Notes under the pieces: generated by a model
What the model saw: the letters and a program-made list of their open reading frames with translations, nothing else
Database searches by the model: none
What the model was told of the DNA's origin: nothing
Program-made: the position numbers and the translations under genes
Shown here: piece after piece, positions 1,520-12,842 of the stretch
How positions within the stretch are numbered: the stretch's first letter is position 1
Layout of the letters: every line of letters starts with the position of its first letter
NCBI GenBank assembly: GCA_002069025.1
Contig: MWBK01000107.1
Location: 1 to 12,842 of the forward strand
Direction of reading: 5' to 3'
DNA length: 12,842 bases
DNA from: Bacteroidetes bacterium ADurb.Bin302
GTDB taxonomy: Bacteria > Bacteroidota > Bacteroidia > Bacteroidales > Paludibacteraceae

Positions 1520-1527
1520 CAAAACTA
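1520..1527 (-). promoter_or_regulatory. Possible -7 element for lemA-TPM operon
   Basis: The minus strand reads TAGTTTTG, which fits TAnnTTTG. It overlaps the stop codon of the upstream 989-residue gene and lies 36 nt before the lemA ATG. No good TTTG is seen at the -33 distance, so this is only a partial match. lemA could equally be transcribed from further upstream. Confidence 0.3.
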
Positions 1528-4494
1528 TTTTTTCATGATTATACCACGATTCTTTTTCCCATCAACCTTAGTGATTAGAGCAGAATCGAAATGAACTTGA
1601 CGTATGTACTTAGTCTCCTTTACAGTAGGCTGTGCTTCAAGGTATGCCATATCAAAGCACTCTTGCTTATTATTATTCTGAACAGTTATATACACAGCTC
1701 CACACGAAGTAAGATTCTGAAAGAAATGAGTACCCTGACTCGGATCTATATGATAATTCGTTTCTCCGGCTTCTACTATAACATGCGCACCTGCAATATT
1801 TGGCCATTTAACAGGTATCCCCAGCCATGTATCACTGCTTCCCCATCTTCCGGGTCCTATCAAAATATAAGGCTTATTTTCAGCCATCAATGCCTTATTA
1901 AACGAATCAATATCATACGCAATTAATTGATTATTTGATGGACTAAACATTCCCGGTTTTACATATACCACATCAAATATATCACTTAATATACCATTGC
2001 CTAAAGCATTTGAAGATGATACCAAAGTATCGACAAGCGGAATCAAGGACAAGTCTTCGTCAATTGATTTATTAGAATCCACAATAGGACGTATCTGCAA
2101 TAAATAAAATACATTATTAGTATTTTTTTTATAATCGAGGTTTACTGCGAATTCAATCTCTACAGGACGCCCCATCTCGCGTTCGCCCACCTTCAGTACC
2201 TTCTCTAGGATATCTGCCAATGGGAATACATCATGCTCCAAAATATTAGCAAATGTAATTACCTTTCTTCCTCCTTCGTATATACCATCACGAATTATCT
2301 GATCGTAAGGATCAAAGGTGGATGCAAGATAACGCAAGGTACCATCTTTTTCAGCATCACGCACATTTAAATGCAATAGGTTAAAGCCATCGTCTACCAA
2401 TGGTTCAAATTTTATATTCGCCAAATCAAGCGCATTAAAATATGTTTGCGTTTCACGAAGAGCAAAATCTAAAGAACTTGTTTGTAATATGTTATTTGGA
2501 TGCTTTGGCGAGAATCTAAGTGTTTGGCCACCATCAACAATATACTTACCTAATCCGAGAGCTACATTTACAATACCATCCTCCGGTTTTTCTTCACCTA
2601 TAGGATAATAATTCAAAGATCTTGCGACTCCCGAAAATGAAGGATAAAATCTATCTTCATGAGCATTACCGCACACTTCTTGCAGAACTACAGCCATTTT
2701 TTCTCTGCTAATGACATTCTTAGTTGCAGTCATGTAAGATTTACTTGCCTGATAGTAAACTGATGCATACACAGCCTTAATTGCCTCACATATCATCATC
2801 AATGTAGTAATACGACTTCCTTTGATATTTGGTACCATATATGTAGAGTATACACCAGCAAAAGGTTGATAGTGAGCATCTTCAAGCAAACTTGAAGAAC
2901 GAACTGCGATAGGACAATTTTCTTCAACAGCACCAAGATATGCATATAAATCACCTACTACAGTGCGTGGCAATTTAGCATTTAAAAAGAATTTTAAAAT
3001 TTCCTCATCAGTTTTATCCTCTGCTAAAGCTATGGGGTATAAGTTATTCATTTCCATGAATTCGTCGAACTTATCCGTGCAAAGAACAACTGTTTTTGGT
3101 ACTACAATCTGAGTCGTTTCATACTCAAAAAACTCTGGATTTCGTTTTGATACAAGGTCTAGAAATGCCAAGCCTCTACCTTTTCCACCCATTGAACCTT
3201 CTCCGATTCGAGCAAAATTCGAATACGTGTCGTATCTATCGCTCATAAATACGGCAACAACGCCTTTATTTTTGATTTTACGATAAGTTACTATTGCATC
3301 GAAAATAATTTTGCGAGCCTCATCAATATCGTTTATGTTCTTGACAACTAGGCCGCGTAAAAACTCTGCCAAAGGGAACATGGCTCTTGAATAAAGCCAG
3401 CGTGATATGTGATTATGAGATATATGGTAAAACAATGATTCAGCAGGAATTGTAAAAATTTCATCTTGTAAATCTCTTAAATTCCGAGCGACAGCTACCA
3501 CCTCCTTATTTTCAGGATTGATAAAATTAAAATCACCGAAACCGAAATTAGTAGTTACGGCATCCTTCAACTCAAGATGCATTGTTTCATTATTTTTATT
3601 AATGAAATATGCTCCCATTTCTTCAGCAAGAGGCTTGTTTTTATCCTCACTCGATTCTATAATTATAGGCAAAAACTTGTCTTTCGATCTTATGTACGAA
3701 CACAAGCTGATACCGGCCTCACCATCTATCACACCGTTACGAGGAAACCTTACATCAGATACTACACCAAGAATATTTTTTGAGTATTTGTCATAAAGTT
3801 TCAATCCTTCTTCATAACTACGAGCCAATAAAATCTTTGGCCTACCACGCATTCGCAACATTCTTTCATGATCATTTAATGCCTCTGTCATAAACGACCT
3901 AGATTGCACAAATACATGTTTATATAGATATGGCAATATAGCAGAATAAAAAAGTATAGAGTCTTCAATAAACAAAATTGCTTGAACTCCTACTGATGCG
4001 ATATCCTTATCAACATTCATCTTGTCTTCAATCAACTTAACAATTGCCAACAAAAGATCTGTTTCGCCTAACCAACTAAATACATAATCAATGCCCGTAA
4101 AATCCTCATGTCCGAAAACCTTCTTAAACATTTCACGCGAAAAGGGAGTTAATAACACAATGGGAATAGATGGCCTTTGGCTTTTGAATTCTTTTGACAG
4201 CTCGAATACCTCACTATTGTCGCCGGAAGGCATAACAATTATAAGTTCGAAAGACCTGGCTTTTAGTAAATCCTTAGCATCTTTCATTGTTGATGCTAAA
4301 GTAAAACGAGGAGGATAACGAAGATTTAGTGAAGTATACTCATTAAATATCTGCTCATCTATTCTACCATCTTCTTCAAGTGTAAACGCATCATACTTAC
4401 TAGCAACTAGCAAGATATTATAGATACGTTGAGTCATTAAACTTGCAAAAGAAGTATCTTTAAAGTATAGTTTAATCCTATCAGGTCTATTCAT
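1525..4494 (-). CDS. Receiver-domain / PPDK N-terminal (PEP-pyruvate-binding, ATP-grasp-like) fusion protein
   Basis: This 989-residue protein has two receiver-like regions first. One spans about 24-160 and lacks an Asp at the phospho-site (IIVMPS). The other spans about 171-310 and keeps the acidic pair E177/D178, D247 in VVSDVR, and K300. A PPDK N-terminal nucleotide-binding domain covers about 427-805, with GEGSMGGKGRG (431-441), CPIAVRSSSLLEDA (527-540) and QIRP (800-803). A C-terminal domain of about 185 residues contains GPGRWGSSDTWLGIPVKW (880-897). The phosphohistidine swivel domain and the PEP-binding TIM barrel of true PEP synthase or PPDK are absent, so that full reaction is not expected. 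Similar proteins occur in Bacteroidota without an assigned function. I infer a phosphorylation-controlled ATP-using enzyme. The start at 4494 is chosen because FKDTSF just after it looks conserved; Met20 (4437) is an alternative. Confidence 0.82.
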   Translation of the reverse strand: MNRPDRIKLYFKDTSFASLMTQRIYNILLVASKYDAFTLEEDGRIDEQIFNEYTSLNLRYPPRFTLASTMKDAKDLLKARSFELIIVMPSGDNSEVFELSKEFKSQRPSIPIVLLTPFSREMFKKVFGHEDFTGIDYVFSWLGETDLLLAIVKLIEDKMNVDKDIASVGVQAILFIEDSILFYSAILPYLYKHVFVQSRSFMTEALNDHERMLRMRGRPKILLARSYEEGLKLYDKYSKNILGVVSDVRFPRNGVIDGEAGISLCSYIRSKDKFLPIIIESSEDKNKPLAEEMGAYFINKNNETMHLELKDAVTTNFGFGDFNFINPENKEVVAVARNLRDLQDEIFTIPAESLFYHISHNHISRWLYSRAMFPLAEFLRGLVVKNINDIDEARKIIFDAIVTYRKIKNKGVVAVFMSDRYDTYSNFARIGEGSMGGKGRGLAFLDLVSKRNPEFFEYETTQIVVPKTVVLCTDKFDEFMEMNNLYPIALAEDKTDEEILKFFLNAKLPRTVVGDLYAYLGAVEENCPIAVRSSSLLEDAHYQPFAGVYSTYMVPNIKGSRITTLMMICEAIKAVYASVYYQASKSYMTATKNVISREKMAVVLQEVCGNAHEDRFYPSFSGVARSLNYYPIGEEKPEDGIVNVALGLGKYIVDGGQTLRFSPKHPNNILQTSSLDFALRETQTYFNALDLANIKFEPLVDDGFNLLHLNVRDAEKDGTLRYLASTFDPYDQIIRDGIYEGGRKVITFANILEHDVFPLADILEKVLKVGEREMGRPVEIEFAVNLDYKKNTNNVFYLLQIRPIVDSNKSIDEDLSLIPLVDTLVSSSNALGNGILSDIFDVVYVKPGMFSPSNNQLIAYDIDSFNKALMAENKPYILIGPGRWGSSDTWLGIPVKWPNIAGAHVIVEAGETNYHIDPSQGTHFFQNLTSCGAVYITVQNNNKQECFDMAYLEAQPTVKETKYIRQVHFDSALITKVDGKKNRGIIMKK

Positions 4495-9342: not shown

Positions 9343-9387
9343 TATCAAAAAAGGGGTTCACATCTTATGTGAGCCCTTTTTTTGATA
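9343..9387. terminator. Bidirectional intrinsic terminator between convergent operons
   Basis: The hairpin pairs about 21 positions (9343-9363 with 9367-9387, with two G-T pairs) around a 3-nt loop. It has an A-run on one side and a T-run on the other, so both strands end in U-rich RNA. It lies 10 bp after the HIT gene stop and 29 bp after the end of the minus-strand oxidoreductase gene, and serves both. Confidence 0.9.
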
Positions 9388-9416: not shown

Positions 9417-10652
9417 TCACAATTTTGCTTCTGCTTTTTCGATCTCTTTTACAAGAGACTTAGGCAAATTGTCGACGCAGTGATGACATTTCATTTCTAA
9501 GGTGTACATACGTCCGATGCAATAGTTAGAATGCTTGCAGCCGTTACGGTAATTTGAATCAGATTCTTTCATCTTATTTACAAATTCAGGATCATGAACT
9601 AATGCGCGAGCCATTTGTACAAGTTCAAATCCCTTATCTAAAACTTCGTCAATCTTAGCTCTTGAAACAAGTCCACCAACGTAGATAAGAGGACATTTAA
9701 TTTCTGCTCTAAATTTCAGTGCAGGTTCTAGAAAATATGCTTCTTTAAAAGGAACGGTAGGAATCATTTGTCTGCCAACAACTTTCAATCCTGCTTTTAA
9801 CCACCAGAATTTCCACGGATTCATATAATGTCCTAAGGTTTTAAGTGGCATAGCTCCACACATAACATGCATAGGTGCTTTGCTTACAAATCCGGCGCTA
9901 AGTACAATTCCGTGTACACCGCATTTCTCTATTTCCTTTGCAACGGTCAAGCAGTCGGGAAGTTCTAATCCTCCTTTAAATCCATCATACATATTGGTTT
10001 TTACGACTACTGCCATGTCGTCTTTAGCGTGCTGCATTACTTCGTGTAAAACTTGGCGCATAAAACGCATACGATTATCGAGGCTGCCACCATATTCATC
10101 TTTTCTATGGTTTGTGTATGGTGATAAAAATTGAGAAATCAGATAACCATGTCCTGCATGTATTTCAACGCAATCAAATCCGGCTTTGCGGCACATATCT
10201 ACAGATTTTCCGAAATCTTTTACCAAATCATTTATTTCAGAAATTTTCAAACCACGCATAATGGTTGGAGAGTATAAATTAAATCCGCTTGAAGCACCAA
10301 CAGGCATCCCGCCACATGTATAATAGTGAGTCATATTGCCGCAGTGACCTAATTGTATGCTTGCTTTAGCTCCTTCTGCATGTATTGCATCCGTTAATTT
10401 TTTTAGTTCCGGAATGATTTCCTCGCGCATCCATAACTGTCCGTCAAAAGATACACCGTTGCGGTTAACAGCGCAATAGGCGATTGTAGTCATACCGATT
10501 CCGCCTTTGGCTACGCTTGTATGGTAGTTAAACAAATCTTGTGAAGGCTTGTTATCATAACACATATTTTCAAATGCGGCCGAACGTATAGTACGATTAC
10601 GTAGAGTAATAGGTCCTAATTGAAACGGAGTGAATAATTTACTTTCTGACAT
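9417..10652 (-). CDS. Old-yellow-enzyme family NADH:flavin oxidoreductase (single domain)
   Basis: This 411-residue FMN-binding TIM-barrel protein starts with the OYE pattern LFTPFQLGPITLRNR. It has the family core HAGHGYLISQFLSPYTNHRK (165-184) followed by DEYGGSLDNRMRF. H165, H168 and Y170 are the expected substrate/flavin residues, and the phosphate-binding end has IYVGG and MARALVHDP. After the barrel comes a four-cysteine cluster with spacing C372-x5-C378-x10-C389-x2-C392. This resembles, but does not match, the [4Fe-4S] site of 2,4-dienoyl-CoA reductase and BaiCD-type enzymes. The C-terminal FAD/NAD(P)H domain of those longer enzymes (about 640-670 residues) is missing. The gene lies 21 bp after a steroid 5-alpha-reductase-family gene. 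I infer an enone or delta4-3-oxo-steroid reductase. The substrate is not proven. Confidence 0.85.
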   Translation of the reverse strand: MSESKLFTPFQLGPITLRNRTIRSAAFENMCYDNKPSQDLFNYHTSVAKGGIGMTTIAYCAVNRNGVSFDGQLWMREEIIPELKKLTDAIHAEGAKASIQLGHCGNMTHYYTCGGMPVGASSGFNLYSPTIMRGLKISEINDLVKDFGKSVDMCRKAGFDCVEIHAGHGYLISQFLSPYTNHRKDEYGGSLDNRMRFMRQVLHEVMQHAKDDMAVVVKTNMYDGFKGGLELPDCLTVAKEIEKCGVHGIVLSAGFVSKAPMHVMCGAMPLKTLGHYMNPWKFWWLKAGLKVVGRQMIPTVPFKEAYFLEPALKFRAEIKCPLIYVGGLVSRAKIDEVLDKGFELVQMARALVHDPEFVNKMKESDSNYRNGCKHSNYCIGRMYTLEMKCHHCVDNLPKSLVKEIEKAEAKL

Positions 10653-10673
10653 GATGATATGAATTGTTAATTA

Positions 10674-11441
10674 TCAGTATATGAATGGGAAAACGCGTTT
10701 TAGATGTTTCCCTTTAAATTCTTGTTCAAATTCAACTTTGTATTTTTTGTAAATAGAATTTGCGCGGGGTACTAAATTTGCGCAAGTCCACCATAAGAAT
10801 ACTGCACCTGCAGTCGACCATGTTAATATTGCAAATCCGCCCCATTCTAAAATTTCACCAAAGTAATTTGCTGATGTAACATATTTATACATGCCTTTTT
10901 GCGGTAAATAATGATTAGTATCACCTGGTGCACGAAGATTCCTTATTACATGGTCTGAATTCCAATTTATAATTAAACCTATAATAAAAATGCTTGTGCC
11001 TAAAATAAATTGCCAGCTTGTTAACCAACTTTCAGTGTACATATTTTCAGGTGCAAGATAAAAAATCCATCTTCCTTGTATGTATCCGTTAGCAATATTA
11101 AAGAGTACTCCCATAAGCATAATGGCAATAGGCATCTTACTATCTCCTTTTAGTAAAAAAGGGAAAATAAACGAACGTTGAAAATAGTGTAATTCGAATA
11201 GTAAGAACATAATTAGTGGTACAATCTCAAATGTTCTGTCTGACATCCACCATAAGTATGCTATGACAAAAAATACAGGGCATTCCATCATCACCCATGC
11301 TACTTTATTGTTTATTGACGGTCCCCATTTTTCACTGATTAATTTGCCGTAACCTGCCTCAACAAAAAACAAGGATACGAATACCACCAATGCTATAATA
11401 GTCATGATGAGTAAGAAAAAATTAAACTGTGCTAAATCCAT
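10674..11441 (-). CDS. Steroid 5-alpha-reductase family (3-oxo-5-alpha-steroid 4-dehydrogenase-like) membrane protein
   Basis: This 255-residue polytopic protein has about six or seven hydrophobic segments, near 6-26, 47-65, 72-88, 103-121, 142-160 and 200-220. Family landmarks are ECPVFF (E53), LHYFQRSFIFPFL (84-96), NGYIQGRW, NWNSDHVIRNLRAPGD (159-174) and the cofactor-side motif NYFGEILEWGGFA (192-204, with E196/E199). The C-terminal NLVPRAN and FPFIY segments also fit. Each has a clear counterpart in human SRD5A enzymes, which reduce the 4,5 double bond of 3-oxo-delta4 steroids with NADPH. A bacterial relative could use bile-acid or steroid-hormone intermediates or another enone lipid. 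It lies between a secreted PCMD-domain gene (49 bp upstream) and the OYE gene (21 bp downstream). No promoter is visible in either gap. Confidence 0.88.
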   Translation of the reverse strand: MDLAQFNFFLLIMTIIALVVFVSLFFVEAGYGKLISEKWGPSINNKVAWVMMECPVFFVIAYLWWMSDRTFEIVPLIMFLLFELHYFQRSFIFPFLLKGDSKMPIAIMLMGVLFNIANGYIQGRWIFYLAPENMYTESWLTSWQFILGTSIFIIGLIINWNSDHVIRNLRAPGDTNHYLPQKGMYKYVTSANYFGEILEWGGFAILTWSTAGAVFLWWTCANLVPRANSIYKKYKVEFEQEFKGKHLKRVFPFIY

Positions 11442-11490
11442 AATTAATATTTATTGATGTTATGTATAAAGTGAATTAGTTAATATTTAA

Positions 11491-12444
11491 TTAGTAGTCA
11501 AGTTTAATATTGTCAACCCATAAAGTATTACCCACGGTTCCGATGAATGCACCTTGATTTCCTGAGGTAATCATTAAAATCATGTGTGTAGGAACATCAT
11601 CTTCATCACCCCAACAGATTTCTCTTACAAGAACCATTTTACCTTTTTTGTTAGGTGCTTTGAATGGTCCATTGCTACCTGAAAGTGCCATAAATGGCTT
11701 GTAATATGGGGTTTTGCTGATATCGCCGTATTGAATAGGGAATCTTGCGTTGTTTTGCCATTCTGGTACATCACTGGTTAATTGATGGCGAATAGTTCCA
11801 ATGCGTTTTGCATAAATCTTTCCATCTGCGTCTTCCCATCTTTTTTGTAGATAAAGTATGAATTCGGCCCTGTCTTGTTTTCCCTCAATACGAGTTGAGC
11901 CGATACCGGGATGTTTCATTACAAAGGTATTCTGTGATACTATACATTTGTAATCCAAAACTAGTGCCTTAGGTTTTTGAGTGAAAGGGACTCCCATATT
12001 AATAAATCCGTATGGGTCGCTGGTACCTGTAATAGGTTCAAGAGTTTCTCCTAAAAATATGCTACCGGATACAAGTACCGAAATATCAATCATTCCAAGT
12101 ACTTTTACATACTCCATTTTGGTGTCAAGTCTTGCGCATCTTCCGTTGCCTCTTTTTTCCGGTGAAACCGAATTACTTGTTTTATGGATTCCTGCAACTT
12201 TAGCATATGCGTTAGAAGAACTCCAAGGTGTTTTTACACCATATTTGTAAGGTATATTCCCTTTTATGTATTCGTCAGGAGCAATAACGTAGATTTGTTT
12301 AGTCTTTCCACCGATTATGGCAGATTCTTTAATCTCGCGTGTCGCCCATTGTTCAAAATCACCGAATTGAATGGGTTTTTCTTCGGCTAATATTGGCAAA
12401 AAGTATGCTATTAGACCTAACGATAATATTGGCTTTAGTTTCAT
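11491..12444 (-). CDS. Secreted PCMD-domain (putative carbohydrate-metabolism domain) protein
   Basis: From the ATG at 12444 the product is 317 residues; an ATG two codons earlier (12450) is also possible. The predicted transcription start near 12460 leaves more leader for 12444. A Sec signal peptide (MKLKPILSLGLIAYFLPILA) ends without a lipobox Cys, so the protein is probably periplasmic or secreted. The rest matches the PCMD pattern: VLVSGSIFLGE, a GVPFTQKPKALVLDYK segment, a Trp/Pro-containing middle strand region, SGNQGAFIGTVGNTLWVDNIKLDY near the end, and mostly beta structure. PCMD is common in Bacteroidota. A jelly-roll, glycan-related role has been proposed for it but is not established. 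It leads the operon with the steroid-reductase-like gene. Why the two go together is unclear. Confidence 0.75.
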   Translation of the reverse strand: MKLKPILSLGLIAYFLPILAEEKPIQFGDFEQWATREIKESAIIGGKTKQIYVIAPDEYIKGNIPYKYGVKTPWSSSNAYAKVAGIHKTSNSVSPEKRGNGRCARLDTKMEYVKVLGMIDISVLVSGSIFLGETLEPITGTSDPYGFINMGVPFTQKPKALVLDYKCIVSQNTFVMKHPGIGSTRIEGKQDRAEFILYLQKRWEDADGKIYAKRIGTIRHQLTSDVPEWQNNARFPIQYGDISKTPYYKPFMALSGSNGPFKAPNKKGKMVLVREICWGDEDDVPTHMILMITSGNQGAFIGTVGNTLWVDNIKLDY

Positions 12445-12463
12445 ATACATATTTTAACGGCTG

Positions 12464-12493
12464 CAAAGATAATTAAAATACATTAAAACTCAA
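12464..12493 (-). promoter_or_regulatory. Promoter for PCMD/steroid-reductase/OYE operon
   Basis: The minus strand has TATCTTTG (12471-12464), an exact -7 match. A TTG (12493-12491) lies 19 nt upstream. The predicted start near 12460 gives a short leader. This is the only promoter-like match seen upstream of the three-gene unit. Confidence 0.7.
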
Positions 12494-12615: not shown

Positions 12616-12842
12616 TTAAAAATTTAAGGTTCTTTGGTATTCGGCTTCAGGTTCAGTTGCTAAAAACAATTTTAATTGTTTTTTGTCCTCAAATCCACCA
12701 AGTTTTTTTCTATAAGTACCAAATATTTGTGGATTCTCGATTTCAAGTTTTCTATTTTTAGAAATATTCAAAAATTCTTCGACTTTATCAATTCCTAGAA
12801 ATTTTCTATTTGCAAGATTTGCAGCAATTCCTGTTGTCGAAC
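12616..12842 (-). CDS. DNA methyltransferase C-terminal fragment (N6/N4-type), start outside window
   Basis: Reading the minus strand from the right edge, two leftover bases are followed by 74 codons and a TAA at 12616-12618. The visible protein begins STTGIAANLANRKFLGIDK. This is the SAM-binding motif I region ((G)SGTTG...GR-FIGID) of N6-adenine/N4-cytosine DNA methyltransferases, and it sits near the C-terminus as in the beta class. The tail ends EAEYQRTLNF. The catalytic DPPY-type motif and target-recognition region lie beyond the edge, so specificity cannot be read. Any partner restriction gene would also be outside the window. The frame has no start codon in the window. Confidence 0.72.
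   Translation of the reverse strand, partial: STTGIAANLANRKFLGIDKVEEFLNISKNRKLEIENPQIFGTYRKKLGGFEDKKQLKLFLATEPEAEYQRTLNF

Follow-up and report, generated by a model that had tools for sequence, protein, structure and literature searches.

A candidate steroid A-ring operon with a leading PCMD-family gene in a Paludibacteraceae genome and its relatives among the Bacteroidales

A block of three genes on the minus strand of contig MWBK01000107.1, from Bacteroidetes bacterium ADurb.Bin302 (Paludibacteraceae), raises the question of which molecules its products act on and whether its first gene belongs to that task. In order of transcription, as called from the open reading frames (ORFs) of the 12,842-nucleotide stretch that was analysed (the window), these are a PCMD-family gene, a gene for a membrane protein of the steroid 5-alpha-reductase type (SRD5A) and a gene for a short flavoenzyme of the old yellow enzyme (OYE) family. 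The operon of this gut-type bacterium probably serves to flatten bent steroid or sterol molecules, and we read it, with moderate confidence, as a steroid/sterol A-ring module that would convert 5-beta ring systems, which are bent, to the flat 5-alpha form with the help of a secreted PCMD partner. We know of no account of how poorly soluble flat steroids enter, reach a membrane reductase and leave. In the portions of the papers drawn on here and below, the flat steroids of gut Bacteroidales (isoallo bile acids and steroid sulfates) are described as influencing immune cells and the balance of cholesterol (PMC11271093, PMC9417993). An earlier note on this DNA had proposed an operon for steroid or bile-acid reduction; its observation of the gene set is confirmed and its interpretation is partly supported, being apparently right in kind (steroid reduction) and too narrow in substrate. 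What is new is the PCMD link; the SRD5A–OYE core resembles a published route.

The PCMD-family gene (11491..12450, minus strand) encodes a predicted secreted protein of 319 aa, with a signal-peptide-like N-terminus that has no lipobox Cys and a predicted jelly-roll beta sandwich. It opens at 12450, two codons earlier than 12444, the second in-frame ATG from which it had been counted before; the order then given, PCMD ahead of SRD5A and OYE, stands. A gap of 49 bp separates it from the SRD5A-like gene (10674..11441, minus strand, 255 aa), and the 21 bp reported between the latter and the OYE gene (9417..10652, minus strand, 411 aa) were found at 10653-10673. Each product scores above the curated cut-off of its Pfam family (Oxidored_FMN, E 1.1e-57; Steroid_dh, E 1.6e-39; PCMD, E 3.2e-21). 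The proposal of one promoter for the block agrees with the distribution of TANNTTTG, which on the minus strand has a single match upstream of the PCMD start as far as the edge of the window (TATCTTTG, 12464-12471) and none in either intergenic gap; two more minus-strand matches both fall within the PCMD gene. The upstream site is part of a TTGA-N18-TATCTTTG match (12464..12493, minus strand) to what we take to be the Bacteroidales promoter-type consensus, an exact match that is post hoc, the pattern having been written after the site was inspected. A sigma-70 scan of the window listed no site at 12464-12493 and 39 promoter-like sites overall, against a shuffle mean of 53.1. The three genes are shown to form one transcription-unit-like block in their predicted layout, and since their order is kept across Bacteroidales, a chance arrangement is of no concern.

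The reductase assignment begins with the SRD5A-like protein, in whose translation all three of the SRD5A-type motifs quoted in the earlier note were found. Its residues 102-255, the C-terminal catalytic domain, match PF02544 with 135.7 bits (cut-off 22.6), and its best solved matches, homologous over nearly the full length, are a bacterial SRD5A (PDB 7c83, 1.4e-52) and human SRD5A2 (PDB 7bw1, 5.7e-38). Among 22 positions that we take to line the active site and the NADPH site of human SRD5A2, 13 are identical (Y33, W53, E57, Y91, R94, N160, D164, R171, N193, E197, E200, R227 and Y235), including most of the NADPH-site positions examined; E53, Y86, R89, N159, D163, R170, N192 and E196 of the window protein correspond to human E57, Y91, R94, N160, D164, R171, N193 and E197. 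E57 and Y91 are presumably the catalytic pair that holds the 3-keto group, and at least 97% of 75 relatives, which were selected at 245-275 aa, retain this pair as well. Apart from its bacterial operon context, the window protein differs from human SRD5A2 at the other nine positions (Q56, Y98, N102, R105, R114, R179, F223, H230 and H231), with M52 at human Q56, beside the catalytic Glu. Very-long-chain enoyl-CoA reductases and SRD5A3 act on a double bond of an endogenous lipid, and a block devoted to non-steroid lipid or polyprenol reduction would have the SRD5A protein working in the same way and the OYE on another enone. We hold this to be very unlikely: the nine differing positions and a match to the enoyl-CoA reductase art-1 (2.3e-05) are in its favour, whereas the solved steroid reductases match far better, and both the linkage to short-chain dehydrogenases/reductases (SDRs) and the co-occurrence with a sterol-type sulfotransferase, described below, point to steroids. 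Fold and E57/Y91 pair speak for a steroid 5-alpha-reductase, although the change at Q56 leaves room. Among the best 120 of 5241 matches to a Phocaeicola SRD5A no characterised species was named, and the few names shown were DUF1295.

The OYE matches PF00724 with 196.3 bits (cut-off 27) and has the His/His/Tyr active site (H165, H168 and Y170) found in all 50 OYEs compared. It bears what its sequence indicates is a degenerate Fe-S-type motif: C372 and C378 are present in 49/50 and C389 in 50/50, while the remaining, second cluster-type position is Ser in 35/50 (Ser, Val, Thr or Lys within the near clade) and Cys only in the distant members L185 and L186. Pfam gave Oxidored_FMN alone, with no FAD or NAD(P)H domain found in the protein, which ends at residue 411, and a fold comparison with 2tmd aligned to about residue 439 of 729. 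The window OYE ends after the extension, unlike BaiCD, 2,4-dienoyl-CoA reductase (DCR), 2-naphthoyl-CoA reductase and trimethylamine dehydrogenase (TMADH), which continue into FAD/NADH domains; the BaiCD equivalog NF041087 gave 202 bits against a cut-off of 825, its best stretch covering positions 3-257 of 642. Assignment to the TMADH/DCR-like class rests on the fold comparison and the Cys motif, because a profile search against PDB sequences left the Cys-rich tail unaligned among the alignments shown. The short OYE had been regarded as a peculiarity of this layout, which does not hold, the 50 uncut frames of the relatives described below measuring 401-475 aa as well. Because its own FAD/NADH domains are missing, the enzyme would pass electrons from FMN to an outside carrier, and a short OYE of this kind raises the possibility that the 5-beta step proceeds oxidatively, with that carrier as acceptor.

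In the mechanism that we favour, the SRD5A protein would be an NADPH-dependent reductase that makes flat 5-alpha (A/B-trans) products from 3-oxo-delta4 steroids. The OYE would work on the 5-beta side of the same C4=C5 bond, perhaps mostly oxidising 3-oxo-5-beta steroids to the delta4 ketone, so that the two together would take ring systems from the bent 5-beta to the flat 5-alpha form, and SDR enzymes, nearby in many relatives and with one elsewhere in the sister genome, would set the 3-hydroxyl. The PCMD protein would be a secreted partner with a part in binding, transport or processing of the flat steroid or sterol with its 3-hydroxyl, or of a conjugate. Bile acids, host sterols or plant sterols are candidate substrates.

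Conservation was followed in two sets. The first, a sample of close relatives, consists of 54 loci from a scan of titled genomes with an SRD5A protein that shares an exact short peptide pattern with that of the window (titles Bacteroidales or Bacteroidia, except L007, an uncultured bacterium). The second, order-wide, comprises 295 Bacteroidales genomes, in which a near SRD5A means at least 47%, an OYE at least 44% and a sulfotransferase at least 60% identity; completeness 90 was requested in the same-sample scans, whose answers state no completeness. Genome G001, the source of locus L001, is the sister genome and served as stand-in for that of the window. In 51/54 loci SRD5A is followed by a co-oriented OYE, the other three being two that end before the OYE (L006 and L009) and one without it (L019); L005 ends within the OYE, and in L039 and L046 about 1.3 kb lie between the two genes. 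Order-wide, a near SRD5A was found in 40/295 genomes, 39 of these 40 having the OYE, less than 500 bp away in 32/39. Ten genomes have an OYE without a near SRD5A, and nine of them have a distant SRD5A, G257 being the exception. By these counts SRD5A–OYE is an old pair. Either or both of two SDR families occur in the flank of 22/54 loci (by Pfam on single members), and the order SRD5A-OYE-SDR-SDR is seen in L187, L190 and L191. It had been remarked that no 3-beta-hydroxysteroid dehydrogenase (HSDH) is present, and indeed no SDR/HSDH-type gene was found beside the pair in the window or in L001; G001 has one SDR family (47%), unlinked to the pair, and the second was not found there. The missing HSDH therefore looks like a local rearrangement. 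With the conserved pair, the following SDRs of many relatives, the E57/Y91 pair and the 13 of 22 shared positions, the proposal of a steroid-type 5-alpha-reductase and OYE operon is upheld as far as sequence can tell.

Three side observations concern the same neighbourhood. The gene between SRD5A and OYE in L039 (2286-3653) and L046 (3189-4415), both Prevotella-type genomes, belongs to one family, by eye perhaps a REP-type transposase. In G257 (L192:5487-7501) OYE and SDR are adjacent and SRD5A is gone from its usual place, with none in the genome at 1e-8. Among L025-L054, 14 loci carry a gene of cluster c3 (the L025 member is a glutamine cyclotransferase by Pfam) upstream of SRD5A on the opposite strand; it is immediately adjacent in 12 of them and separated by one frame in L025 and L053.

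Which steroid is flipped is the next question. A Bacteroidetes route from 3-oxolithocholic acid (3-oxoLCA) to isoallolithocholic acid (isoalloLCA) through a 5-alpha-reductase (5AR), a 5-beta-reductase (5BR) and a 3-beta-HSDH was reportedly described in 2021 by Li and by Sato. A review, in the part considered, assigns the conversion to such activities of Bacteroides (PMC11271093), and the route is also treated in PMC9645264 and PMC12789469. A membrane 5-alpha-reductase, an OYE-type partner and SDRs are neighbours in many Bacteroidales relatives, a likeness to that route in terms of activities; the window lineage differs in having no SDR beside the pair and PCMD in front. If the operon were specific for bile acids, 5BR and 5AR would turn 3-oxo-delta4 bile acids into allo or isoallo forms and PCMD would be an accidental neighbour. 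The match to the reported Bacteroides activities (PMC11271093, PMC9645264), the Phocaeicola species within the clade (L021, L026 and L027) and the titled hosts, mostly gut or faecal samples, are in keeping with such specificity, which we nevertheless consider rather unlikely. The rumen-labelled L042 carries the complete pair where bile acids are not expected (rumen-labelled L009, whose contig ends, and L019, where OYE is absent, have SRD5A without OYE in view), and the linkage of PCMD recurs. Moreover, the distant SRD5A of G298 and G161 sit in islands (L183:6046-16956; L184:2826-12965) with a TonB receptor, a secreted protein, a sulfotransferase, START, LolA-like and MMPL proteins and a 3Beta_HSD-family protein, and the G161 MMPL passes the sterol-sensing cut-off (33.5 bits vs 22.3). 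These islands support sterols as substrates of the SRD5A family in Bacteroidales, though in other lineages. Of the bile-acid reading in the earlier note, the likeness to the reported route was retained, whereas bile acids as the substrate were not, given the rumen pair and the company of a sterol/steroid-type sulfotransferase.

A broader steroid/sterol module would leave a role for the PCMD protein, which matches PF13201 with 76.6 bits (cut-off 28) and, in its predicted model, shares the fold of solved family members. The earlier note had listed the leading PCMD gene correctly and overlooked that its linkage recurs, which suggests that it is no mere passenger. Each of the first nine genomes tested has one orthologue (45-97%), and 48/295 Bacteroidales genomes have it, with pieces only in G207 and G175. 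A near SRD5A is present in 30/48 PCMD genomes (Fisher p 3e-20, genomes being treated as independent and shared descent ignored), and a near SRD5A or the sulfotransferase in 42/48, vs 11/247 genomes without PCMD, again ignoring shared descent. Linkage is better evidence than co-occurrence here. In the window, L001-L004 and L010, PCMD and SRD5A are adjacent and co-oriented, and in G108, G193 and G260 they stand head to head; the two are less than 500 bp apart in 4/30 genomes with both (G001, G108, G193 and G260). PCMD follows an SDR in L043, L188 and L189; in G083 and G302 it stands behind an SDR about 10-14 kb from SRD5A, and G172 is arranged alike. On the SRD5A tree, which was read directly (the automatic label test counted grouped rows only), directly PCMD-linked cases fall in separate parts, namely Paludibacteraceae-type rows including the window, L043 and the G260 group.

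A second genomic partner is a sulfotransferase. In seven PCMD loci the gene that precedes PCMD comes from a single cluster, two members being Sulfotransfer_3 by Pfam, and a CysN-like end lies ahead of this gene in 5/7 (the L127 fragment is GTP-eEF1A_C by Pfam), with the order CysN, CysD, CysC-like in L187 (by reading). In 11 genomes PCMD lies within 200 bp downstream of the sulfotransferase, the seven loci that were read having 1-35 bp between the two reading frames, and 24 of the 25 genomes (out of 295) with the sulfotransferase also have PCMD, shared descent ignored. No solved homologue of the enzyme was found by sequence at 0.001. In the portions of the papers considered, BT_0411-BT_0416 is a Bacteroides 3'-phosphoadenosine-5'-phosphosulfate (PAPS) sulfotransferase cluster that makes cholesterol sulfate (PMC9417993), and a Bacteroides sulfotransferase acts on cholesterol and isoalloLCA (PMC11271093; PMC9417993); the main text of PMC9417993 makes no mention of 'BT0417'. 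The PCMD relatives resemble that cluster in having a Sulfotransfer_3 enzyme preceded by CysN/CysD/CysC-like genes, and differ in that their sulfotransferase cluster lies outside the window, as a partner of the PCMD orthologue only.

We tentatively propose, at less than even odds, that in Bacteroidales the PCMD orthologue is secreted specifically to handle flat 3-hydroxy sterols or steroids (5-alpha or otherwise planar) and serves both the 5-alpha-reductase module and the sulfotransferase cluster. It might bind the flat product in the periplasm, present it to the membrane reductase or pass it outward. Several results weigh against the module and this extension of it, in addition to the nine SRD5A2 positions and M52. 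The substrates and activities of SRD5A and OYE are predicted from sequence. The sulfotransferase is called 'BT_0416-like' from its gene anatomy, and at 1e-20 the sister genome G001 gave no match to it. Genomes count as independent in the co-occurrence tests; PCMD is missing from 10/40 near-SRD5A genomes, both near SRD5A and sulfotransferase are absent from 6/48 PCMD genomes, and in 26/30 genomes with both, PCMD and SRD5A are not within 500 bp. PCMD lies in the SRD5A flank of only six among the first 54 loci (one 22-bit match left uncounted), and several PCMD loci are set among housekeeping genes (RuvX, acyl transferase and LD-carboxypeptidase by Pfam, deformylase by eye). Finally, among solved structures the nearest relatives of PCMD bear the title of putative glycoside hydrolases, followed mostly by carbohydrate-binding modules and similar jelly rolls. 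The fold, the housekeeping neighbours and the neglect of phylogeny would all suit an ordinary glycan-binding or glycoside-acting protein whose co-occurrence reflects shared ancestry and whose adjacency is due to chance or genome compaction, a possible explanation to which we also give somewhat over a third of the weight. It does not readily explain why PCMD is closely linked to SRD5A, SDR or sulfotransferase in several distinct arrangements, nor why both near SRD5A and sulfotransferase are absent from so few PCMD genomes. If the steroid-factor proposal is true, the 'putative carbohydrate metabolism domain' family contains a steroid-handling branch. As companion of 5-alpha-reductase and sulfotransferase, PCMD offers a concrete gene for genetic study in a workable commensal. 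No paper on the PCMD protein domain appeared by title or abstract start among the matches listed (in one of them, with 12 occurrences of the abbreviation, PCMD denotes a plant database), and the link may already have been published.

Some candidates were set aside. The secreted protein of the distant islands was not accepted as a PCMD orthologue: it scored 25.3 bits in L184, below the cut-off of 28, with no match in L183, and BLASTP against the window protein gave a best E of 1.7. Apparent PCMD fusions in L195 and L196 are long open frames that look, by eye, like antisense-type extensions. In one genome (L126:697-2418, equal to L198:3289-5010) an SGNH-hydrolase-like part, identified by eye, is in frame with PCMD, with a signal-peptide-like stretch between; a single genome is too little basis for an argument, and the frame was not used as one. 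Near the sulfotransferase, a DUF4136 protein adjoins an outer-membrane beta-barrel protein in a near and a distant lineage (L187:11485-12764 and L184:35-1311).

At the borders of the operon, the window edge truncates an upstream gene (12616-12840), whose 74 aa share 92% identity with the last part of a 292-aa L001 gene; the first part of that L001 gene reads DPPY, a methyltransferase motif, in agreement with the methyltransferase gene previously placed there. Beyond the OYE, genes for GreA and a HIT protein lie on the plus strand, convergent with the operon. A hairpin with flanking A/T runs (9343..9387, 20 pairs as scored on the plus strand) separates the OYE stop from the convergent HIT-family gene and is likely a two-way terminator. 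Elsewhere in the window, positions 1-70 hold an edge-cut tRNA by Rfam (57 bits) that ARAGORN missed, and 1525-4494 encodes a protein of 989 aa that has a PPDK_N ATP-binding domain, together with a response-regulator match below threshold.

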